Shown here piece by piece: positions 2-12,087 of a stretch of DNA of 12,087 bases. A program made the translations under genes and the position numbers. Below the pieces are notes generated by a model that saw only the letters and a list, made by a program, of their open reading frames with translations, ran no database searches and had not been told where the DNA came from. Positions within the stretch are counted from its first letter, which is position 1. Every line of letters begins with the position of its first letter. This DNA is from Flavobacterium sp. (GTDB lineage Bacteria; Bacteroidota; Bacteroidia; Flavobacteriales; Flavobacteriaceae), in NCBI GenBank assembly GCA_003449615.1, contig DMHA01000209.1, positions 2,179 through 14,265 of the forward strand, written 5' to 3'.

Positions 2-1063
2 CAATTGCCTAATTTTGATACCGTAGAAATTAAATATGCCAAAGGTTTCAAAATACTGCAATCAAAGGATAGCCTGATGTTGGTTATTAAAAATCCTTGG
101 CAAGGGGCTGAGAATATTGAGCAAAAGTATTTACTTTCTCGCAATTTTAAAAAATCAGATGCCAATTCTCAAATTCCAAAAATAAAGCTACCTGTTCAGC
201 GCATTGTTTGTCTTTCTACTACTCATATTGCAATGATTCAGTTCATTAAAAAGACCCATTGTATTGTCGGAATTTCGGGTACACATCTTATATCAGATAC
301 AATGATTTTAAATAGAATTGAATCTGGCGCTATTAAGGATGTGGGCTATGAGCAAAGTTTGAACTATGAAACTTTACTTTCATTAAAGCCTGATTTGCTT
401 ATGGCTTATGGTGTTGGAAATGATTTCTCCGCCTATTTGAGCAAAATTAAGGAAATGGGCATACCTGTTGTTTTAAATGCTGAGTATTTAGAAAACCATC
501 CTTTAGCGAAAGCTGAATGGGTAAAATATGTTGCCGCTTTTTTCGATTGTATAGATACTGCCAATAATTTGTTTTATCAAATAGATTCTTCATATCTGCA
601 TTTAAAAAAATATGCCCAAACATTTTCAAGCAAGCCGCAAGTTCTTGCTGGCTTGCCTTGGAACGAAACTTGGTATGTTCCGGGTGGTAAATCTTATGCT
701 GCAAAACTTATTGAAGATGCTGGTGGTGAATTTCTGTGGCGTGAAAATCATTCACATGAAGCCATCCCATTAAATATTGAATCGGTAATTAAGAAAGCTT
801 CTAATGCCGATATATGGATCAATGCGGGTGCAGCTAATAATTACAAAGAAATATTTGCTGTAGACAGCCGGTTGAAACATTTGAAACCTTTTAAAACATT
901 TAAAGTTTATAATAATAATAAGCGTGTTTCAAAGGGTGGGGGAAACGATTACTGGGAAAACGGAACCATGTTGCCCCATCTTATCTTGAAAGATTTAATT
1001 TGTATTTTCCATGGTCCTCAAAATGGAAATGATAGTTTGTTCTTCTATAAAAATATTCACTAA
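2..1063 (+). CDS. ABC transporter substrate-binding protein, BtuF/FhuD-like (5' end outside window)
   Basis: Periplasmic metal-chelate binding protein of the BtuF/FepB class, which would deliver vitamin B12, heme or a siderophore to the permease encoded two genes downstream. The reading frame is open to the window edge, and the first start-like codon is a TTG with no signal peptide or lipobox after it, so the true N-terminus lies upstream. Visible features (numbered from that TTG) are the beta-strand RIVCLSTTH near 66-74, the family-typical 'L..KPDLL' near 126-132, 'GLPWNETWYVPGGKSY' near 216-231, and 'NDYWE.G...PHLILKDL' near 314-331, a pattern common in Bacteroidota homologues. It is 12 bases from the next gene and clearly in one operon with the permease and ATPase. 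The substrate cannot be decided from sequence alone. Confidence 0.87.
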   Translation, partial: QLPNFDTVEIKYAKGFKILQSKDSLMLVIKNPWQGAENIEQKYLLSRNFKKSDANSQIPKIKLPVQRIVCLSTTHIAMIQFIKKTHCIVGISGTHLISDTMILNRIESGAIKDVGYEQSLNYETLLSLKPDLLMAYGVGNDFSAYLSKIKEMGIPVVLNAEYLENHPLAKAEWVKYVAAFFDCIDTANNLFYQIDSSYLHLKKYAQTFSSKPQVLAGLPWNETWYVPGGKSYAAKLIEDAGGEFLWRENHSHEAIPLNIESVIKKASNADIWINAGAANNYKEIFAVDSRLKHLKPFKTFKVYNNNKRVSKGGGNDYWENGTMLPHLILKDLICIFHGPQNGNDSLFFYKNIH

Positions 1064-1075
1064 ATAAATATAATT

Positions 1076-1354
1076 ATGGCTAGTAAAAGAATTTTAAAAA
1101 AAGAAATCAATTTCCTTGGGTCAGAACTTATCAATGAATGCTTTGCTTACCAACAGTTTCATACTGATGCTCCAGCTGAAAAGATAGAAGAGATAGCCAA
1201 CAAAATTTTACAAAAAAGAAATGAATTGGTTGCCCGCTTAAATCTCCCTACTTCAGAGATGACTAGGGCTGATATCAAAGCTTATTTCAAGAAAATTAAT
1301 GAGGAATTCATTGATAGTATTAAGTATTTAGATGAATTGGCTGCCTTGAAATAA
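1076..1354 (+). CDS. Small helical hypothetical protein within the importer operon
   Basis: A 92-residue, charged, apparently all-alpha protein without signal peptide, membrane segment or cysteine pair, hence probably cytoplasmic. It begins MASKRILKKEINFLGSELI and has an aromatic patch (CFAYQQFH, about residues 22-29) followed by heptad-like helices rich in K, E and I. ATG at 1076 follows the binding-protein stop by 12 bases, and the stop at 1354 is 1 base before the permease start, so it is translated with the transporter genes. I recall similar small helical proteins of unknown function in Bacteroidota, but I cannot assign a role. Possible roles include an accessory or regulatory factor of the transporter. 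No Shine-Dalgarno is visible, which is usual for the phylum. Confidence 0.8.
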   Translation: MASKRILKKEINFLGSELINECFAYQQFHTDAPAEKIEEIANKILQKRNELVARLNLPTSEMTRADIKAYFKKINEEFIDSIKYLDELAALK

Positions 1355-1355
1355 T

Positions 1356-2384
1356 ATGGGTTCTCGTTTTATTTTATTTGCTTCTTTATCGCTTTTGTTT
1401 GTATTATTATTTGTTGCCGATATTTTTCTAGGCTCGGTAATGATTTCTCCAAAAGTGGTATGGAATGCTTTTTTTAATATTCAAAGCGTTGAAAACGAGT
1501 TTCTGATTATAATACGTGAATTCAGATTGCCAAAAGCTATAACTGCAATTTTTGCTGGTGCTGCTTTAAGCGTTGCGGGTTTGCAAATGCAAACTATTTT
1601 TCGAAATCCTTTGGCCGGACCCTATGTGCTTGGCATTACTTCTGGTGCCAGCTTGGGGGTGGCTATTCTTATATTGGGCTATAGTTCTGTATATAGTACC
1701 GAGTATATTTCTTATTTGCGTAATTTTTCAATCGCTGCTAGTGCATGGATGGGTGCTGCTTTTGTGCTGTTGCTGATTCTTATAATTTCAAATTGGGTCC
1801 GCGATATTATGACCATCCTTATTCTAGGTATTTTATTTAGTGGTGCCATTTCGGCACTGGTTAATATATTGCAATATTTTAGCAGCGAGTCTATGCTAAA
1901 AAGTTATGTAATATGGACTATGGGTAGCCTTTCTGGTGTTTCTGTGCCGCAATTGCAGATTATGATTCCTTCTGTTGTATTTGGCATTACTATTGCGTTT
2001 TTTATTTCTGCTTGGTTAAATATACTTTTGTTGGGTGAAGATTATGCCAAATCATTGGGTGTTAATATTTTACTGGTAAGAATTTGTGTATTTATTTCTT
2101 CAAGTATTTTGGCAGGTACTATAACTGCATTTTGTGGTCCTATTGGATTTATTGGAATTGCAGTTCCCCACTTAGCCCGCATGTTATTTAAAACAGCAAA
2201 CCATTTTATTTTAAATGCAGCTTCTATTCTTATAGGAGCTAGTATGATGCTTTTTAGTGATATCATTTCTCAATTGCCCGGCTCTGGAATTAGCCTGCCA
2301 GTAAATTCAATTACAGCTCTAATTGGAATCCCTTTGGTGGTATATATAATTGTTAAAAAAGAAAAATATTCTACCAATCTTTAA
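1356..2384 (+). CDS. FecCD/BtuC-family ABC transporter permease
   Basis: Inner-membrane permease of the iron-siderophore/heme/B12 importer family, about 342 residues, which is the usual full length, with roughly ten hydrophobic helices throughout. Family motifs are present in order: FRLPKA (56-61); the 'GL.MQ..FRNPLAGPYVLGI.SGA' region at about 75-98; GEDYAKSLGV (227-236); the coupling-helix signature CGPIGFIGIAVPHLAR (260-275), which contacts the ATPase; and the C-terminal LPVNSITALIGIP (314-326). It starts 1 base after the preceding stop and overlaps the ATPase gene by 35 bases. The complex would be a homodimer of this protein with two ATPase subunits. Substrate (B12, heme or siderophore) is not resolved. 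Confidence 0.93.
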   Translation: MGSRFILFASLSLLFVLLFVADIFLGSVMISPKVVWNAFFNIQSVENEFLIIIREFRLPKAITAIFAGAALSVAGLQMQTIFRNPLAGPYVLGITSGASLGVAILILGYSSVYSTEYISYLRNFSIAASAWMGAAFVLLLILIISNWVRDIMTILILGILFSGAISALVNILQYFSSESMLKSYVIWTMGSLSGVSVPQLQIMIPSVVFGITIAFFISAWLNILLLGEDYAKSLGVNILLVRICVFISSSILAGTITAFCGPIGFIGIAVPHLARMLFKTANHFILNAASILIGASMMLFSDIISQLPGSGISLPVNSITALIGIPLVVYIIVKKEKYSTNL

Positions 2385-3108
2385 ACCCGAGACATTCGTT
2401 ATTGAAACAATAGACCTAAGTATTGGTTATAAGCGCAGTGAGCCGATTTTAAAAAAAATATCGATTAAAATACCGCATGCTTCTTTAATCGCTATTATTG
2501 GACGCAATGGAACAGGTAAGAGCACTTTGTTTCGGACTTTGGTTGGACTTTTAAAGCCAATTAATGGGCAAATTATTATTGAAAATAAAGAATTGAATAA
2601 GTTTTCAAATACCGAATTGGCTCATAAAATTGCTTTTATTTCAACTGAGCAAGTTAGGGTCAATCATTTAAATGTATACGATTTGGTTGCGATGGGTCGC
2701 TTTCCATACACAGGTTTAATGAATAAGCTTACTAAAGAAGACCATGATATGGTAAGCTCTTCTTTGGAAAAAACAGGTATGCTATCCTTTGCTTATCGCA
2801 ATATTAATAAACTTAGTGATGGCGAGCGTCAAAGAGTTATGATAGCAAGAGCTTTGGCTCAGGATACCCCTTTGATTATTCTTGATGAACCAACAGCTTT
2901 TTTAGATATACCTGGCAGATTGGCAATTAATAATCTTCTAAAAGACCTTTCTCTGAATGAAAAAAAGACGATACTTTTTTCAACTCATGATTTAGAAATG
3001 GCAATGAAAAATGTTGACTATTTTTGTGTAGCGCATTCTTCTGTTATTGAATTGCTAAGTATTTCTGAGTTTAATGATAAGGGGTATTATCAGAAAGTTT
3101 TTTCATAA
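2350..3108 (+). CDS. ABC transporter ATP-binding protein, BtuD/FecE/HmuV-like
   Basis: Cytoplasmic ATPase that powers the preceding permease. All ABC motifs are intact: Walker A GRNGTGKST (51-59), Q-loop Q101 in ISTEQ, signature LSDGERQR (155-162), Walker B LIILDE (175-180) followed by the D-loop, and the H-loop histidine in STHD (213). At 252 residues it has the usual family length. The frame has a TAA immediately before the TTG at 2350 and no ATG before the Walker A motif, so TTG is the most likely start. This makes a 35-base overlap with the permease gene, consistent with translational coupling. The gene ends just upstream of a strong hairpin, so it is the last gene of the operon. Confidence 0.92.
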   Translation: MLKKKNILPIFKPETFVIETIDLSIGYKRSEPILKKISIKIPHASLIAIIGRNGTGKSTLFRTLVGLLKPINGQIIIENKELNKFSNTELAHKIAFISTEQVRVNHLNVYDLVAMGRFPYTGLMNKLTKEDHDMVSSSLEKTGMLSFAYRNINKLSDGERQRVMIARALAQDTPLIILDEPTAFLDIPGRLAINNLLKDLSLNEKKTILFSTHDLEMAMKNVDYFCVAHSSVIELLSISEFNDKGYYQKVFS

Positions 3109-3416: not shown

Positions 3417-3830
3417 GTGTGCCAAGCATACTGTTAATCTAAGAGGTGCGGGAGCAATCCCTAGTCCTAAAGAAGCCCGTCGACGGGAATTTTATAGCTG
3501 AAGGCAAGGGTGTTTACGGTGACGTAAAATCTGAAGGAAGCCGAAGGCAAAAGTTTGATGTAACGAACAGAAAGCGAATATAAGGTTTGTCCATTAGGGG
3601 TAATTGAGCCGTATATCAAGACGCCCGAAAGTCGAACGGAACATGGAGAAATAAATCCGCTACATCAAATGGAAAGATTAACAGTTTACCTTGGGAGATC
3701 TTTTCAATATTCCAGAAATGGATAGCCGACATGGCAACATGAAAGTGAACAATGTGAAGAAGTCAGCAGCGAGCATAATACCGAACCTAATTATCGGGAA
3801 GGCTCAAATTTATTAACAATTAAAGGCGCA
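3417..3830 (+). ncRNA. Group II intron 5' ribozyme RNA (domain I region, remnant)
   Basis: This gene-free stretch upstream of the reverse transcriptase has the look of a folded intron RNA. It includes GTGTGCC at the 5' end, a palindromic stem CCCGTCGACGGG (about 3477-3488), repeated GAAGG/GAAGC purine segments near 3500-3550, and a GTCGAACGGAACATGGAGAA stretch (about 3632-3651) of the kind found before group II intron ORFs. These are pattern judgements; I could not fold the RNA or align it to a covariance model. Without domains V and VI it is a non-functional remnant. Confidence 0.62.
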
Positions 3831-4371
3831 GTGAAAATGCGTAAAAGCAGAATGCAACAGCAAAACGAAGTAGTAAAACAACTAAATTTGTTTACAACTA
3901 TAGGTAACACACAGTCAACTGAACCCAACGGAATTGGGACATCACGGACGAGTGTGGTTGAACTGTTATCGCGATTGGAACAACAGCGTACTTTAACTCA
4001 AAACATTTTAGAAAGGATAGTATATTATGGGAACTTAAACAAGGCGTACAAGCGATTAAAATCCAATGATGGAAGTGTAGGTTCGGATGGTATGAATATC
4101 GATGAATTGCAAATTTATTTGAGTAAACACATCGAAGAAATGCAACAATCGATACTAAATGGCAGCTATAAAGTTTCACCAGTACGTAGGATAGAAATAG
4201 ACAAGCCCAATGGCGGAAAACGAAAGTTGGGCATACCTACTGTGCGAGACAGATTAATACAGCAAGCTATATCACAGCAGATGAACATTTATTATGACAT
4301 GCATTTTAGTGAACACAGTTTTGGATTTAGACCAAACCGGGAGTGCACATGACGCAATTAAACAAGCATCG
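3831..4371 (+). pseudogene. Group II intron reverse transcriptase/maturase (LtrA-like), N-terminal fragment, frameshifted
   Basis: The intact frame runs from GTG 3831 (or ATG 3837) to a stop at 4350-4352 and encodes the N-terminus plus the first RT blocks: GSVGSDGM (81-88, RT0), SPVRRIEIDKPNGGKRKLGI (116-135) and 'TVRDRLIQQAI' (RT1), and FSEHSFGFRPNR (159-170, RT2). One extra G near 4338-4341 shifts the frame. Reading on from 4342 restores SAHDAIKQAS, the expected continuation in this family. After about 4371 the similarity ends. The catalytic YADD block, thumb, maturase X and any endonuclease domain are missing, leaving roughly 180 of the usual 400-600 residues. The damage is thus a single-base frameshift and a large 3' deletion. 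No activity is expected. Confidence 0.88.
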
Positions 4372-4674: not shown

Positions 4675-5526
4675 CTATTCATTTATAAATATTTCTTGGT
4701 CTAATCCTTTTTTATGTCTGTGAATTGAATCTAATAATTGTAGTAAATTTTCTTCTTTGATATTACCGATGTCAAAATTTATTTTTTGTTCGTCATATCG
4801 TTTTTTGCTTCCTGATTTTTTAATGCTGCTGTCAATGTTGTCTGGCGTATAGAACTTGGCTTTGTTGTCAAGATGCTTCTTAAATTCATTTAGATAAATT
4901 CCTATTCCTGCAAAGTCAAAGTCGCCATAATGTAAATAATTGTTTGGGATTGATTGCAGCCACTTAATTAAATCCTTGCTTTGATTTTGAGGATAGCGAC
5001 TGACAAAAAGCGGTTTGATGTTCTTAAACAAATATTTCTGTTTGTCAATGTGCCGAAAGTTTTCAGGGTTCTCAATTCCTACAATTGTTATGTCTTGTTC
5101 GGGAATGAAACTTTTAAAGTCATAAATGAAATTGAATGTTCCATTGGTCGGTAAAATTGTAATTGCTTGTCCGTTTAATGTTGCATGTGTAGGAGAGTAG
5201 GAATTCACTAAAAAACCTTTAAAAGTTCGTAATGATTTTATTTTAGAATCAGCAGCAACAGAAACAAGGTCGGCACGAAGCAAATCTTCTTTCTTAAAGG
5301 TTTCAATGTATGTGAGAAGGTCTCTGATAGCAAAATGATTTTCTAAATAGAGTTTCAGTTGTTGCTTGTCCGCCAATTGAACTGTGCTTTTAAGTTTTCC
5401 TGGCTTATGAATTATTCCTTCTGAAATCATGTCTTTAACAATTTCATGTTTTAGTTTGCTTGAAGGAATTTTTTCTCCGCTAACAAGCAACAAAAGTTTC
5501 TCAGCAATATTTAAAGGTAGTTTCAT
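4675..5526 (-). CDS. jetD: Wadjet JetD-like Toprim nuclease subunit
   Basis: Probable nuclease of the SMC plasmid-defence system. In characterised Wadjet systems JetD cuts circular DNA after the JetABC motor has extruded it. The C-terminal half carries a Toprim-type acidic set: E152 in ITIVGIENPENF (146-157) and the D-x-D of YGDFDFAGI (D202, D204), followed by the topoisomerase VI/Spo11-like terminal LDQE (275-278). The N-terminal ~100 residues look like winged-helix/arm regions with no clear motif. At 283 residues it is shorter than the roughly 390-residue type I JetD I recall. The ATG overlaps the jetC stop (ATGA), so translation is coupled. The TAG stop lies one base from an IS left end, so the last residues (IFINE) could have been altered by the insertion. 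The LDQE motif is retained, so the loss, if any, is small. Confidence 0.86.
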   Translation of the reverse strand: MKLPLNIAEKLLLLVSGEKIPSSKLKHEIVKDMISEGIIHKPGKLKSTVQLADKQQLKLYLENHFAIRDLLTYIETFKKEDLLRADLVSVAADSKIKSLRTFKGFLVNSYSPTHATLNGQAITILPTNGTFNFIYDFKSFIPEQDITIVGIENPENFRHIDKQKYLFKNIKPLFVSRYPQNQSKDLIKWLQSIPNNYLHYGDFDFAGIGIYLNEFKKHLDNKAKFYTPDNIDSSIKKSGSKKRYDEQKINFDIGNIKEENLLQLLDSIHRHKKGLDQEIFINE

Positions 5527-8500
5527 TGCCGTTCTCTATTGTTTGTAATTAAGCGGTTGATTATCGTTACTGGCTTTCCATCGCGGGAATCAACTTGCTT
5601 TGCAAGTTTGTAGGTATGGCGATAAGCCAAAGCATCCAATGATTGAGGAGAGCTGTTTATGAGATATATGTTTCTATCATTTGCAAATTTTAATAACCCC
5701 CGAACATTCTCAATATGTAGTGTTCCAATTTCGTCAACCATACAGTGTAATCGAAAGTCTTTAAATCTATTTTTTGTAGCCCCTTCCTTAAATACATTAA
5801 GAAGCATAATGTTAATCATTGCTTTTACTAAAACATCAGTTCCATTGGAACCAACATTAGCAAGGCTTTGAACCCAATTTGTATCGTTGTCATTCTCCAC
5901 AACTTTAAATTCTAATTCAAATGAATCCGAAAGGTTAATGTCTTTGTGTTTGTAATCTGAAATTTCCTTTATCAATTGCGTTAGCAAGCCAATTGCTTTT
6001 TTGTTTTTTGCTTCCCGTGTTTGTTCGCTTGTAGAAAACAGATTTGAAACACCAATCTCATTTATGTTTTCATCATTGAACTTTTTGATTTCAGTCAAAA
6101 GATGAACAATTTTATTTTCACTTTCCACAACTCTCAACTCAATACTTTTAATTACACCAGTAAATATTCGCTTCACAAAGTCAGTATTGATGCTTCTGAT
6201 TACGGTTTCAATTTCTCCTTCTTTAGAAAGCAACTCTGTTGTTTCTTTTCCTACTTGCTTAATGATGTCGGCAAAAAGTTCATTCACTCGTTTTTCAAAA
6301 AGTGCAATCTTATCTTCCTCAACAAACTCTTGTAAGTCCTCTGAGAATTGGAAATACTCGGATTTTTCAATAAGATTTGTTTTGAACTTGAAAATATTTT
6401 GGGGAGAAAAATTTCCGTTGAACTTATTTATTGCTTCCTGTAAGTCAGTATATTTTTTGATGCCTGTGTAATACTTTTCATTCAGTTCTGCTATCAAAAG
6501 TTTACAACGCTTCTCACTTTTATTTTCTGTTACTGGCTCGTTAGTGAGTTCTGGAATACTTTTAAAGCAATCTGTTATTTTGAATGCTTCATACTCAATC
6601 AAATCTTCCTGAATATTACCAAGAAGTTGTTTTATGATTTCAATTTCTGCTTTGAGTAAATTGATTTCATCAATGAGTTTCTGCTTTTGAATATTGTGCT
6701 TTGTTTGTTCTGTGCCTAATTGATTTTCAAAACCTGTCTTTTGGTTTTTGAAATATTCAACTTTGTCAAACAGTTGTTCCTTGTCGTATTTGTATCTTTC
6801 AGTAATCGGATTATTTTTTTCAATAAAATATAACTCGGTTTTCAACTCTTCTATTCTTGCAGTAAGTTTTGCAATCTTTTCTGTGTCTGCACCTTTAGAA
6901 TCTAACTCCTTTTTTTGTTGGACTTTTAACTCGTCTGTTTTCTTTTTCGATTCTTCTTTTTTGTTCCTGATAGCCAAATTGATTTCAGCAATTGAATCAC
7001 TCACTTTCTTTTGTTCTGCATCAACTTTTTTGTCCTTCTCTTTTCTCTTACTATCTATTTGCTTTTTAATTCCGTCTTCAACTTCTTTCACTGCTTTATC
7101 AGCATCAAATTTTTCTGAACTTGTTCTTTCAAAGCAGCTTTGAATTTTTGCTAATTCAGTTTTTTTATCTGCTGCTGCTTTATTAGCAAATTCTTCTGAA
7201 CTTACTTTTGCTTCATTAAGTTTTATTGTGTTTTGTTCAATTGTGTATCCGTTGCTACGAATTGTTTCTTTGCACTTATTTATTTTGGGCTGCTGTTTCT
7301 TTCTCAGGTTTTCTAAATCAACATTCAATTGTTCAGCAATTGCTGAGATTTCTTTTTGCAATAATTCAATTTTCTTGCTGAATTCAATTTTTTCTTTCTC
7401 ATAATCAGCAACAGTTTTTACTGACTTTGCAACTTCATTCAAGTCAATTATAATTCCGTAAAAACTTAAATCAGTTTTTGAAATTTGTTCTGGTGCCAAA
7501 CCTGACTTGAACAAAATATTTTCTTCATCAATAACTTTTCCGATTGTCTTTTCCCAATTCGGATATTCTTTATTGAGCCAACCATAGAGAGAATCTTTGC
7601 TGTTCTCAACTTTCTCGTTTATGACTTTAATTTTATCATTGAGTTTCCAGATTTGCTCATTCGCCTTTTCCTTTTGATTGTTAGAAGTAGTTTCAATTTT
7701 CTCCTTTTCTAACTCCCACTGCTTTTTAATGGTTTCTATTTCATCATTAAGTTGCTTTGTATCACTGTTGGCAATTCTGATTTTCTCTGTTAAACTATCT
7801 ATGTCTGTTTTTAGATATTCAATTTCAGTTTCGTAAAAGCGTTTGTATTCGGTCTTCGCCTTTAATATTTGGAGATTGCTAATTGCTTTTTTCTTTTCTT
7901 CAACAAGATTTTTAGCAAGCTGCAATTCTTCTTGGTGTTGCTTCTTTATTTCCTCAAATAAAATTTCATACTCCTTTGTAAATTCTTCTTTGAAACGCAG
8001 TAGGTTTTTGTTTGTAGAGTTGATTTCATTCTGTTTTAAGTTTTCAAATGTTGAAAGTTGATTTGTCAACTGAGTTATTTGGGCTTCAAACTTTTGCATG
8101 ATGTCAACAAAGTTTGATTCCAAAAGTTCTTTCTGTTTTGTAAGTTCTTCCTTCTCCGTTTCCCAATCCGATTTTTTTGAAACCCTTTTGATAATACTTT
8201 CAATTTTTAGTTCTGCATATTTTTCTGATTTTGTTTTCGCATCTTTTAATTTGCCTTCATACACATTTATCTCAGCAGTAATTTTTTCTTTTTTGCTTTG
8301 AAAAATTCTTTCAAGGTCTCCTATCTTTTCTTCAAGTAAATTTTGTTTTATTTCTTCTTTGCCAAGTTTGTCGGCAACCTTTGGTTGCTGCTTTTCAATT
8401 TCATTCAACTGCCAAACTAACTCACCTGCCAATTGTCGTTTTTCGCTGTCGTAAAATTTGATTGCAGAATAGGTTGTTATTACTGTTTCTGCTTGCTTTC

Positions 8501-9221
8501 GAACTATTATCTCTCCGCTTTTTGTTTTCTCTGTCCACTTTTTAATGTCGATTAATTGTGTGTCAAAGTTTTTTAAGTGTGAAGAGTAGTTTGATAAATC
8601 AATATTGATTTCTTCTTCGTTCAAAGATTTTATTATTGTGTCTTTTATAAATTCACTCTCAACTTTGTAATTCAAAAACACATGTTGAATTGCTCTCGGA
8701 ATATTTTGATACTGTTTGCTTTCAAGCAAAGCATATTTCTTAAACTCCGAACCTAATCCTTGACTATTTCCATAGAGTATGTTTCTGTAATCTTCGTAGC
8801 GGTCAATTTTTCTTGTGTAATAAGTGTCTTTGCCGAAAGCTAATTTTATTTTATCCCAAGTTTCAAGTATGTTTCCTTCACTGTCAATGAAGTGATTTCT
8901 GTTGTAGTTGCCGTCAATAAATCTAAAACAAACTCTGCCTTGCGATTTGAAAACCAAAACACAAAACATTCCTGTTTCTCTGTTCACTTCATAAACGATG
9001 TAGGAATTTTGATATGGAAAATAGAAATCAAGAAAACTTTTTTTGCCAACTGGAATGCCCAACTTCTGCTGATTTGCATTGTAGAAAAAAAGCAAAGCCC
9101 TAAGCAAAGTGCTTTTACCTACACCTTGTGTCCCTATGAAATGCACATTACCATCAACATTCACTTCCGAATACTTGATGTTAGCACTTTCAATAAATAT
9201 TATTTTACTCAGGTATCTCAT
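5523..9221 (-). CDS. jetC: Wadjet JetC / MksB-like SMC ATPase
   Basis: Motor of the complex: an SMC/MukB-type ATPase of 1232 residues that dimerises and extrudes DNA loops. The N-terminal head has Walker A GTQGVGKST (30-38). Long K/E-rich coiled coil follows from about 270 to 540 and again from about 600 onward. Between them lies a globular, probable hinge with GWLNKEYPNW, LAPEQ and SFYGIIIDL (about 547-594). The C-terminal head has an ABC-like signature GSNGT (1124-1128) and Walker B LHCMVDE (catalytic E1164). All catalytic parts look intact. It begins inside the 3' end of jetB (17-base overlap), behind a strong GGAAGGAG, and shares ATGA with jetD. Weaker alternatives are other MukB/SbcC-like ATPases, but the JetA/B/D neighbours settle the family. 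Confidence 0.93.
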   Translation of the reverse strand: MRYLSKIIFIESANIKYSEVNVDGNVHFIGTQGVGKSTLLRALLFFYNANQQKLGIPVGKKSFLDFYFPYQNSYIVYEVNRETGMFCVLVFKSQGRVCFRFIDGNYNRNHFIDSEGNILETWDKIKLAFGKDTYYTRKIDRYEDYRNILYGNSQGLGSEFKKYALLESKQYQNIPRAIQHVFLNYKVESEFIKDTIIKSLNEEEINIDLSNYSSHLKNFDTQLIDIKKWTEKTKSGEIIVRKQAETVITTYSAIKFYDSEKRQLAGELVWQLNEIEKQQPKVADKLGKEEIKQNLLEEKIGDLERIFQSKKEKITAEINVYEGKLKDAKTKSEKYAELKIESIIKRVSKKSDWETEKEELTKQKELLESNFVDIMQKFEAQITQLTNQLSTFENLKQNEINSTNKNLLRFKEEFTKEYEILFEEIKKQHQEELQLAKNLVEEKKKAISNLQILKAKTEYKRFYETEIEYLKTDIDSLTEKIRIANSDTKQLNDEIETIKKQWELEKEKIETTSNNQKEKANEQIWKLNDKIKVINEKVENSKDSLYGWLNKEYPNWEKTIGKVIDEENILFKSGLAPEQISKTDLSFYGIIIDLNEVAKSVKTVADYEKEKIEFSKKIELLQKEISAIAEQLNVDLENLRKKQQPKINKCKETIRSNGYTIEQNTIKLNEAKVSSEEFANKAAADKKTELAKIQSCFERTSSEKFDADKAVKEVEDGIKKQIDSKRKEKDKKVDAEQKKVSDSIAEINLAIRNKKEESKKKTDELKVQQKKELDSKGADTEKIAKLTARIEELKTELYFIEKNNPITERYKYDKEQLFDKVEYFKNQKTGFENQLGTEQTKHNIQKQKLIDEINLLKAEIEIIKQLLGNIQEDLIEYEAFKITDCFKSIPELTNEPVTENKSEKRCKLLIAELNEKYYTGIKKYTDLQEAINKFNGNFSPQNIFKFKTNLIEKSEYFQFSEDLQEFVEEDKIALFEKRVNELFADIIKQVGKETTELLSKEGEIETVIRSINTDFVKRIFTGVIKSIELRVVESENKIVHLLTEIKKFNDENINEIGVSNLFSTSEQTREAKNKKAIGLLTQLIKEISDYKHKDINLSDSFELEFKVVENDNDTNWVQSLANVGSNGTDVLVKAMINIMLLNVFKEGATKNRFKDFRLHCMVDEIGTLHIENVRGLLKFANDRNIYLINSSPQSLDALAYRHTYKLAKQVDSRDGKPVTIINRLITNNRERQ

Positions 9222-9780
9222 TCTTTGCTCCTTCCGAAATGTTTATGGTCATAACTATTTGCTCAAGATATTTGAACGAAGCCAATACTTTGTATTTATG
9301 AAAGTTGGGGTCTTCAATGTCAATAAATTTATCTTTAACAAGGTCGGCTAATATTTTTTCTAAAATTTCACTTGGTTTTTCCTTCCCGTTGCTGTGTCTT
9401 TTCAATCCTTCAATTTTAGATTTCAATTCAGCATCAAGATTCAGTTTCACCAAAATGTCAGAAGGAGTAAAGCGATAACCTGAGCCAAATGAATTGTCAA
9501 AAGTTTTAAAGAAATCAAGAATATCAATCCACTTAAACGCCTGTTCAATCTTTCTTTCTAAATCAATTTTGTTTTCAACTCTAGTGAAATAATAATACTC
9601 GTCTCCTTTTTCTAAAATGAAATTGATGCTTAAAAAATAATCATACAAGAAATCAAAAATTTGTTCTTCTTCAATAGCTGAATACAGTTTTCGAATGGAT
9701 TCATCATTGCTGTTTGAGCAAATGAATTGGCCTCTGCTTAGTGTTTCAAAAATCGCGGCTGTCTGTTTCGGTGCTTCCAT
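9205..9780 (-). CDS. jetB: Wadjet JetB / MksE-like accessory subunit
   Basis: A 191-residue protein between the kleisin and the SMC gene, the usual position and size of the KITE-type (MukE/MksE/JetB) winged-helix subunit that bridges kleisin and DNA. The start 'IFETLSRGQFICSNSND' (about 10-26), 'DYFLSINFILEKGDEYYYFTR' (split: DYFLSIN at 47-53, YYYFTR at 62-67) and the following hydrophobic helix DILDFF resemble MksE proteins, in which a 'L..G.FI' opening and a 'Y.YF.R' strand recur. There are no catalytic motifs. It starts 7 bases after the jetA stop and overlaps jetC by 17 bases. Identification rests on position and weak motifs together. Confidence 0.82.
   Translation of the reverse strand: MEAPKQTAAIFETLSRGQFICSNSNDESIRKLYSAIEEEQIFDFLYDYFLSINFILEKGDEYYYFTRVENKIDLERKIEQAFKWIDILDFFKTFDNSFGSGYRFTPSDILVKLNLDAELKSKIEGLKRHSNGKEKPSEILEKILADLVKDKFIDIEDPNFHKYKVLASFKYLEQIVMTINISEGAKNEIPE
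9228..9235 (-). promoter_or_regulatory. Strong ribosome binding site of jetC
   Basis: On the - strand GGAAGGAG lies 6 bases before the jetC ATG, inside the last codons of jetB. It is the only strong Shine-Dalgarno sequence I find in the window; the other start codons have none or only weak purine matches. It supports the ATG at 9219-9221 as the jetC start and would let ribosomes initiate there independently of those finishing jetB. Confidence 0.68.
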
Positions 9781-9787
9781 TACTTAT

Positions 9788-10984
9788 TTATTTTGGATAA
9801 ACCAATGCATATTCTATTTCTTGTTCTGAACTATATTTTTCCGTCAATGCAAATGATGAATCGTATTGCGAAATCAACTGACAATAGACGGTTACTTTTT
9901 CATCAAAGGAAAGTTCTTTTTCAAAATTGTAAGCCAACACGAAATCAAACAAGTTGTTTCCTGATGCTATGAAACTGTTTCTAACTTCTTCTAAGTTGAT
10001 TTGAATTTCCTCTTCAACATTCGGTTGCAGATATTCATTTGATATTTTTCCTGCTAGCGGCAACTTTATTTTCACTAACGACTTAATCCTCTTTGCAATT
10101 CTCAGTATGCTTGTGTAAGCGTCATTGTTGGACTGTAAATATTCTAAACTTAGCTTCAACGGATAAGCAGGGTTTGCTTCAAAAATGACATTGTCATTTT
10201 TGAGAATTACTTTATCAATATCTGTGTCTGCTCTGATTGTGAACTGGTCTTTCAAATATTTTAGCTGCCGCAACTTTTCAATTACTCCGCTTTGATACTT
10301 GATTTGATTGAGGTATTCAATAATTTGTTTTTGAATTTCAATAAGGTTGTGTCTGCACTCATTCAATTGCAGTTTTAATTGAGTGATTACTCGGCTTAAC
10401 TCATCATCCAAAGCAGATTTGAAAAATGATAATTCTTGTTCTGAGATTAACTGGTAGGTTTGTTCAATGAAAGAATTGATGTCAATTCTATTCTTGTCAA
10501 GGTTTTCAAGTTTTGCTTTCTTGACTTTGTAGTTCGGTTCGTTTTTAAAAGTATTGTCAATATTCCGTTTTAGGTCAACAACATTTCTCAGAGTGATGTT
10601 GCCGATTTTCCGTAAAGCATTCTTTACTTTTCTCAGATAGTCATATTTTCTGATTTCGTTGTTCTCCTTCAGATAGTAGAGAATATTCTCTTTTACATTC
10701 TGAATATTGGAGATTATAGAAGAAGTATTTATTTCTTCATTGACTTCTAAAACTTGTTCAAAGAAATCTTTGAACTGTTCCTCTATTTCTAAGAAACTCC
10801 CGTTTTGTCTGATAATGGAATGTGAGATTAAGTATTGAATCCTTTCTTCATTATAGTCAACCATTTCCAAAGCAAGGTCATACTTGTATGAAAGCGTTTT
10901 ACGCTTTTCAAACATCTCTGTAAGGAGTTTATGCTCCCTGACAAGAGTTGAAAGTAGTTCCTTTATTGAAGTGAAAGTGTTCAT
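9788..10984 (-). CDS. jetA: Wadjet JetA / MksF-like kleisin subunit
   Basis: First gene of the SMC module, encoding a 398-residue helical protein. The N-terminal region (about 1-90) looks like a winged-helix domain (YKYDLALEMVDYNEERIQYL, then SHSIIRQNGSFLEIEEQF). A long helical, coiled-coil-rich centre (about 100-240) has repeated charged heptads, and a mixed C-terminal domain extends to YALVYPK. This build and the place upstream of jetB and jetC match the kleisin that closes the SMC ring. I see no enzymatic motif. It begins 11 bases after the AbiEii stop, with only an A-rich leader and no Shine-Dalgarno. The Wadjet subtype (I, II or III) cannot be set without profile searches; subunit identity is inferred from architecture and gene order. 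Confidence 0.82.
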   Translation of the reverse strand: MNTFTSIKELLSTLVREHKLLTEMFEKRKTLSYKYDLALEMVDYNEERIQYLISHSIIRQNGSFLEIEEQFKDFFEQVLEVNEEINTSSIISNIQNVKENILYYLKENNEIRKYDYLRKVKNALRKIGNITLRNVVDLKRNIDNTFKNEPNYKVKKAKLENLDKNRIDINSFIEQTYQLISEQELSFFKSALDDELSRVITQLKLQLNECRHNLIEIQKQIIEYLNQIKYQSGVIEKLRQLKYLKDQFTIRADTDIDKVILKNDNVIFEANPAYPLKLSLEYLQSNNDAYTSILRIAKRIKSLVKIKLPLAGKISNEYLQPNVEEEIQINLEEVRNSFIASGNNLFDFVLAYNFEKELSFDEKVTVYCQLISQYDSSFALTEKYSSEQEIEYALVYPK

Positions 10985-10995
10985 GCGAATGTCAA

Positions 10996-11805
10996 CTAAT
11001 TTTTCAGGTTCAGTTTCTTTAAATGTCTTTGCACTTCCCGTTCTACTTGGTCAAAGTCGGGCAAGTTTTTTATTTGTTCACTCATGGAACTCTGCCAACG
11101 ACCTTTGTATTGCTGCAATCGTTCGGCTAATTTTTTCGGAAAATCTGTGTGATTTAATTCTTTGCTTTTACACTTTGTTTCGAATTCATTCAAATAAAAA
11201 TCAACGTCCATTCCTTGTTGCTCCAAAAGATACCAGATGTCATAAAGATCACGGGCTTGCATTCTTTGCATAACTGACCACATTTTCTCCACTAATACTT
11301 CTTCCAATGGATAACACAAAAGTTGGTGTTCTTCCATATCGGTATAGTCAATGAAAACATCTTTATTTTTTGGTTCAAAAACGAGTTGTTCGCTTCTCGA
11401 AATGTCAATTTTTACTCGCTTGTTATTTCTTTTTCCGCCAAGCGGGCCGATATAGCTTATGTAAAAGTTGATGCCACCATCTTCGTGTTCATTGTTATCA
11501 ATGAATTCAAGTGGAATATTGGCTTCTTCCTTAATGTAGTCAAAGGTTTCCCTGAACCATTCAAAAATTTGTTCATTAGAAATTTCATTATTAATTAGGG
11601 TAAAATCCAAGTCTTCTGAAAATCGGTAATCTTCAAAATAGATTTTCTTTAAAACAGTTCCTCCTTTAAAGACGATAACTTTTGAAAGTTGTTCATATTG
11701 TGCAATGCCTTTTAATATCCATGAAAGAATATAATCTTTTTCAATCTGCTGGTCACGAACGCCAACAGCTCTTGCTTTTTGCTGTATCACTCCGGGCTTA
11801 ATCAT
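10996..11805 (-). CDS. abiEii: AbiEii/AbiGii-type nucleotidyltransferase toxin
   Basis: Toxin of a type IV AbiE toxin-antitoxin pair: a polymerase-beta-fold nucleotidyltransferase; characterised relatives block growth during phage infection by transferring nucleotides. All four family motifs are visible: motif I FKGGT (46-50) with RFSEDLDF (61-68), the metal-binding D-x-D region; motif II VKIDIS (131-136); motif III EEVLVEKMWS (168-177), with K174; motif IV ARDLYDIWYLL (184-194). The length of 269 residues is within family range, so the toxin looks active. Its ATG overlaps the AbiEi stop (ATGA), the classical abiE arrangement, and jetA follows after 11 bases. RNA target and nucleotide preference cannot be inferred here. 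Confidence 0.93.
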   Translation of the reverse strand: MIKPGVIQQKARAVGVRDQQIEKDYILSWILKGIAQYEQLSKVIVFKGGTVLKKIYFEDYRFSEDLDFTLINNEISNEQIFEWFRETFDYIKEEANIPLEFIDNNEHEDGGINFYISYIGPLGGKRNNKRVKIDISRSEQLVFEPKNKDVFIDYTDMEEHQLLCYPLEEVLVEKMWSVMQRMQARDLYDIWYLLEQQGMDVDFYLNEFETKCKSKELNHTDFPKKLAERLQQYKGRWQSSMSEQIKNLPDFDQVEREVQRHLKKLNLKN

Positions 11806-12087
11806 GTGTAAATAGCAGATTTAATCGTGTCAGTTTCTAAGTTCTGCTGAATGCTCCACCGACTGTTGCGTTTGCCAACCTTTGGCAATTCGGTGTCAAG
11901 CACTACATAAGAAGCAGTTTTTATTGTATGTAAATCGTCAATAATTCCTGAATTGATGTCGAGTATTTCTAACAAAAATCCTAACCGTTTTATTACAGCT
12001 TGAGAATCGAATTTTTTTGCATAATCAAACAGTATATCGTATTTTATTTTTTCTTTTGAAGTATAAATAGCCCTTGCTACTTCCACT
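11802..12087 (-). CDS. abiEi: AbiEi-type antitoxin/repressor, C-terminal part (5' end outside window)
   Basis: C-terminal 95 or so residues of the protein encoded upstream of AbiEii; the frame is open to the window edge, and the GTG near the edge is not a convincing start. AIYTSKEKIKYDILFDYAKK resembles the helical part of AbiEi C-terminal domains. KRLGFLLE and RNSRWSIQQN match the recurring 'RLG.LLE ... W.I..N' ending. In known AbiE systems AbiEi has an N-terminal winged helix that binds inverted repeats in its own promoter and a C-terminal domain needed for antitoxicity. The promoter and operator for the whole six-gene operon would therefore lie beyond base 12087. Confidence 0.82.
   Translation of the reverse strand, partial: VEVARAIYTSKEKIKYDILFDYAKKFDSQAVIKRLGFLLEILDINSGIIDDLHTIKTASYVVLDTELPKVGKRNSRWSIQQNLETDTIKSAIYT

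Follow-up and report, generated by a model that had tools for sequence, protein, structure and literature searches.

An AbiE toxin-antitoxin pair directly in front of a divergent Wadjet operon suggests a swappable head of defence operons in Bacteroidota

The window, the whole 12,087-nucleotide stretch of Flavobacterium DNA analysed here, contains six open reading frames that follow one another on the minus strand in the order abiEi (11802..12087), abiEii (10996..11805), jetA (9788..10984), jetB (9205..9780), jetC (5523..9221) and jetD (4675..5526). A re-check of the open frames agreed with an earlier note on this DNA, which had described the same six frames and junctions of −4, +11, +7, −17 and −4 nucleotides; as that note had also stated, all six lie on one strand with no space for a promoter between the two modules, the gap between abiEii and jetA (10985..10995, minus strand) being 11 nucleotides long. 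The window ends where its contig (C69, 14265 bp) ends, so AbiEi is represented by its last 94 residues only, and the start of the operon and its promoter lie outside the window. At the other end of the operon, a group II intron fragment (3513-4352) is placed between jetD and plus-strand genes (2-3108) for the binding protein, permease and ATPase of an iron/B12-type ABC uptake system. The fragment consists of Rfam D1-D4 matches at 3513-3685 and 3723-3804, followed by the 173-amino-acid start of an intron reverse transcriptase that ends at 4352.

The first two genes encode a putative autorepressor antitoxin and a nucleotidyltransferase toxin of 269 amino acids; they are adjacent on one strand and overlap by 4 nucleotides. 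AbiEii belongs to PF08843 (DUF1814; E = 1.3e-35, above the curated cut-off), matches the PADLOC AbiEii model at 3.2e-96 and has a relative in the PDB, 9hlo_B, named AbiGII (E = 5.8e-10). The AbiEi fragment (94 amino acids) aligns with PADLOC AbiEi models over their C-terminal part (E = 1.4e-27 at best), and a full-length relative of 273 amino acids, which has no Pfam match at 0.001, is present at 4719-5540 in locus L188 of another genome. An overlapping antitoxin-toxin pair with a PF08843 toxin is also found in type IV AbiE systems (AbiEi/AbiEii of S. agalactiae and Rv2827c/Rv2826c of M. tuberculosis), and a palindrome just upstream of abiEi, seen in relatives of the window pair, is a further likeness. 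Type IV AbiE is, however, described as a bicistronic operon in the portions of PMC3985639 cited here, whereas in the window a four-gene defence operon follows on the same strand 11 nucleotides downstream.

The likeness of these four genes to Wadjet (JetABCD, MksBEFG), a defence system that cuts plasmids, lies in the order jetA-jetB-jetC-jetD, an MksE-like JetB, an SMC-type JetC and a Toprim JetD. JetB (191 amino acids) matches the MksE family PF21980 (E = 1.1e-40). JetC (1232 amino acids) is an SMC ATPase that matches DUF3584 (PF12128) along its length (E = 2e-65); residues G30, G35, K36 and T38, which we take to be its Walker A motif, are invariant across 17 sequences, as are D1163 and E1164. 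A JetC profile search of the PDB at a threshold of 0.1 matched neither JetC nor MukB. JetD (283 amino acids) is a Toprim nuclease that matches DUF7281 (E = 1.9e-8) and, weakly, PADLOC JetD models (near 1e-5), and its fold resembles JetD and the C. glutamicum nuclease. JetA (398 amino acids), a putative kleisin-like subunit, is assigned by position and has at least 2814 relatives at E ≤ 0.001, with no accepted family in Pfam or PADLOC and no sequence match in the PDB. Its structure model has a mean pLDDT of 66.3, too low to lean on; the top two Foldseek matches were 8q72_E (JetABCD, E = 0.01) and 7nz2 (MukBEF, 0.024), and there was none at 0.001. The window operon differs from known Wadjet in divergence and in the length of JetD: the window proteins are too divergent for the PADLOC JetA and JetB models, which gave no match at E 0.1, and matched the JetC and JetD models at only about 1e-5 to 1e-4, and JetD has 283 residues compared with 368 and 374 in solved chains.

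Jet loci were surveyed by scanning one genome per species, and 80 of 280 candidate loci were kept. As a unit the Jet genes are conserved, with all four detected in 61 of the 80 loci and the 17-nucleotide overlap of jetB and jetC present in 59 of 74 measurable cases. Several loci depart from the common arrangement, with jetB and jetC (L072) or jetB, jetC and jetD (L081) on the strand opposite jetA, or with JetABC and no detected adjoining JetD (L111 and L117; genome G407 and a Parabacteroides distasonis plasmid record, in which JetABC is followed by NAD synthase). The titles of the 80 loci are nearly all Bacteroidota; Nitrospirae, Desulfuromonadales and Altiarchaeales also occur, a distribution that points to wide horizontal spread. 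Of 60 relatives searched, two had JetC (the window genome and G052); the 36 genomes of the same genus had none, so the Jet locus is accessory. A sample of 395 genomes from the phylum Bacteroidota gave only three JetA matches, including that of the window and one weak match. Eight plasmid records contain a JetA relative, each at less than 60% identity, and in six of these there was no AbiE among the four to six listed upstream genes (BLAST with P0005 and the AbiEi fragment). Two scans of viral contigs, one using only JetC and the other a JetA alignment, yielded no relatives and so gave no support for a phage-borne Jet copy.

The earlier note had held that a fused AbiE–Wadjet unit would merit description if conserved. 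A broad AbiEii profile detected four AbiEii genes among the 80 Jet loci, and in only one locus (L073) did AbiEii lie within 1 kb of jetA. In L073, apparently identical to contig G052:C173 from the window genome's order, AbiEii is on the same strand as jetA, 315 bp away, and is 33% identical in the aligned part. With a count of 1 in 80, the idea of an AbiE–Wadjet pair conserved in itself was dropped; this pair-specific reading fails, and a broader one, in which AbiE heads defence operons of several kinds and which the earlier note had not anticipated, replaces it. The genes found upstream of jetA were very varied, and by eye included ArgB-like, Obg-like and WYL-like proteins, HNH remnants, a methyltransferase-HIT fusion and others. 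Two further arrangements were seen in the course of the survey. In L074, a HEPN and nucleotidyltransferase pair (9302-9996) ends 4 bp before jetA, another example of a Jet operon headed by a toxin-antitoxin-like pair. In L112 (G052), one strand carries in succession a different AbiE (DUF6088 antitoxin and 325-amino-acid toxin), JetABCD and a type I HsdM, separated by 315 and 225 bp.

A search of genomes with AbiEii revealed the window junction in a second genome, G917 (L188), which belongs to another family than the window genome. The two sequences match over 1164 nucleotides at 95.1% identity, from the window end through abiEi, abiEii and the 11-nucleotide gap into the first codons of jetA; within this segment, the 72 nucleotides that run from immediately behind abiEii into jetA match at 97%. 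A second match of 43 nucleotides (97.7%) lies deeper in jetA after a gap of about 200 nucleotides. Nothing on the G917 contig matched the window beyond these two segments, and a JetA search of the G917 genome returned the jetA remnant at the AbiE locus alone. Both AbiE frames of G917 are complete, while the Jet part has decayed, and the jetA remnant lies near a contig end. Because G917 carries the same junction, the AbiE–Jet composite is not private to one assembly; the pairing is thus not limited to one strain, the jetA of the second copy being decayed. The same observation bears on a possible misjoining of AbiE and Jet in the window assembly, which is fragmented (437 contigs, 75.8% complete) and has abiE at a contig end. 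Since the junction recurs in a second assembly and is internal to its contig in the window, about 1.1 kb from the end, we regard such an artefact as extremely improbable.

Decayed cargo was also found with a gene of another kind. In G790, the abiEii frame is again complete, and behind it come a short remnant resembling the start of a C5-methylase and then unrelated sequence; in G756, which serves as the reference for this remnant, the C5-methylase is intact behind AbiE. Elsewhere in G790 there is a weak, stop-riddled JetA-like stretch (24% identity, E = 4.9e-4). In L181 (G817), a relative (68%) of the second protein of the L142 cargo, which has 171 amino acids, lies 40 bp behind AbiE without a methylase in front, as if the first cargo gene had been lost. 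Intact AbiE frames beside decayed cargo in G917 and G790 are consistent with AbiE acting as a stabiliser only, which would hold the island by addiction, with Wadjet co-transcribed by accident and AbiEi exerting no useful control. In the published portions cited here, AbiE kept a test plasmid from being lost in E. coli (PMC3985639), and AbiE together with SezAT stabilises an integrative element in S. suis (PMC11062541). An addiction module ahead of its cargo, on the other hand, gives no protection from 3′ deletion of the kind seen in G917 and G790, and stabilization offers no reason for defence genes, rather than others, to lie so close behind; we consider this explanation improbable.

For a broader view of what follows AbiE, 49 AbiE loci were counted after AbiEii matches of less than 40% identity (L107-L110) had been dropped, and a locus was called tight if a same-strand gene lay within 15 bp downstream. 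Eleven loci were tight, 33 had no same-strand gene within 15 bp and 5 more were cut or geneless; as 33 of 49 are without a tight gene, AbiE needs no cargo. The first gene behind AbiE matched PADLOC at 1e-20 in 6 of the 11 tight loci and in no more than 4 of the 28 non-tight loci scanned, from which five neighbours running off the contig were left out (Fisher p = 0.017). With the window Wadjet added, the count at the operon level was 7 of 11 (p = 0.0044), the tight group being judged by whole operons and the comparison group by first genes only. L147 and L187 come from a single family, have cargo in common and may therefore be one event; counting the two MmeI loci once gave 6 of 10 at the operon level (p = 0.010). 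Junctions of −4 to +11 nucleotides were found with six defence or restriction-modification cargo types (window, L102, L142, L143, L146 and L147/L187). The tight neighbour in L103 is a metabolic transporter, and those in L105, L162 and L150 had no PADLOC match. A control set of 100 genes taken from these loci gave matches to 60 PADLOC families at 1e-20, with one member each among the matches listed, so defence genes are abundant around AbiE in any case. The statistics on defence cargo behind AbiE are modest.

These counts bear directly on whether AbiE and Wadjet are simply independent modules that came to be neighbours in a region rich in defence genes, where tight junctions, common in compact genomes, would mean nothing. 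The defence matches of the control genes, the variety of genes upstream of jetA, the majority of AbiE loci without tight cargo and the accessory nature of the Jet locus are all consistent with such adjacency. It does not, however, account for the enrichment of defence genes directly behind tight AbiE pairs, for the identical junction in a second family, or for the short junctions across six cargo types, and we consider it rather unlikely, though still credible. Cargo is also scattered on the AbiEii tree, where 13 cargo-labelled rows, loose gaps and remnants included, required 10 changes compared with a shuffled mean of 10.9, and where the well-supported sisters L143 and L146 differ in cargo. 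Cargo therefore looks as if it had been exchanged often, or gained and lost often. A guard function, in which AbiEii would arrest the cell upon inhibition or loss of Wadjet, for example via a shared trigger, would fit an operon common to both modules and the description of AbiE as a bacteriostatic toxin-antitoxin system in the cited portions of PMC3985639. But closely related AbiE pairs have widely differing cargo, and AbiE is retained in loci that have lost their cargo or have none, which makes specific sensing of Wadjet unlikely; a guard role is very improbable.

The Bacteroidota −7 box, TAnnTTTG, was absent from the 1103 nucleotides before jetA in the window, and in a simple consensus scan nothing resembling a terminator appeared between abiEii and jetA. 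The scan did list sigma-70-like sequences within abiEii on this strand; in the window as a whole, such matches were about as frequent as chance predicts (44 compared with 43.6). These results are in line with the statement of the earlier note that the two modules leave no room for a promoter between them. In relatives of the window pair, a proximal 17-mer palindrome precedes abiEi, mostly starting at −26, with at least 7 of 8 pairs formed in 29 of 46 relatives compared with 2.4% of shuffles. Sequence variants of this palindrome still pair (GTCAG/CTGAC, GTGAG/CTCAC and GCCAG/CTGGC), and TAnn(T/A)TTG is present at −36 in 29 of the 46 (count from the list). Some loci also have a clear distal palindrome, which is weak overall (15 of 46, compared with 9.3% of shuffles). 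AbiEi binds inverted repeats and represses its own promoter, according to the cited portions of PMC3985639 and PMC7319586; the proximal palindrome is a candidate operator for the autorepression that the earlier note had assumed. BrxR-type WYL regulators are likewise transcriptional regulators associated with many unrelated defence systems (PMC9122601, as far as cited here); AbiEi would differ from them in being the antitoxin of a toxin-antitoxin pair that heads the same operon.

The borders of AbiE units were also inspected for repeats. Direct repeats flank the units in L151, L193, L180, L190, L156, L106, L191 and L192. The copies in L151 (124 bp) and L193 (106 bp) are 98% and 96% identical, and those in L180 and L190 are 64 and 30 bp long; the L156 repeat (26 bp) reads like a tRNA 3′ end, and in L106 part of a permease is duplicated around the unit. 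These repeats hint at integration without a visible integrase. A recurring intergenic repeat, with matches of about 45 to 440 bp, was found near AbiE in at least 10 loci (L142, L143, L144, L146, L180-L182, L188, L189 and L193) and just upstream of jetA in the AbiE-less Jet loci L015, L019 and L042; it may mark cassette borders. No common excision or att site is claimed, the short motif TTCGGAAATA being present on both sides of L190 but not generally.

AbiE relatives at the front of unrelated defence operons suggest a swappable starter unit, and not a partnership special to one system. No description of AbiE heading a defence operon, whether Wadjet or any other, was found in the portions of the literature consulted, including PMC10586767, PMC8649781 and PMC10924106. 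We lean towards the explanation that AbiE is an exchangeable, self-repressed head of defence operons. In this explanation the gene layout is directly observed and the regulation inferred: the pair would bring its own repressed promoter, and cargo would be transcribed behind abiEii. A more specific version for Bacteroidota, which we put forward tentatively, is that the head is mobile. Defence systems of unrelated kinds would then be swapped in and out at the abiEii stop codon, and an attack that lowers the level of AbiEi would switch on cargo and toxin together and give a combined clear-or-arrest response; where the cargo is lost, the AbiE head would remain as a scar. If the operon-head explanation is wrong, the locus represents ordinary island adjacency of two known modules. 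If it is true, an antitoxin-repressor would set the level of costly defence systems whose operons otherwise lack a regulator, and part of defence-gene shuffling would be explained by a single small module. The AbiEi operator and the abiEii stop codon would then provide a simple marker for new defence cargo in Bacteroidota, and the regulation of Wadjet in its host would become directly testable.
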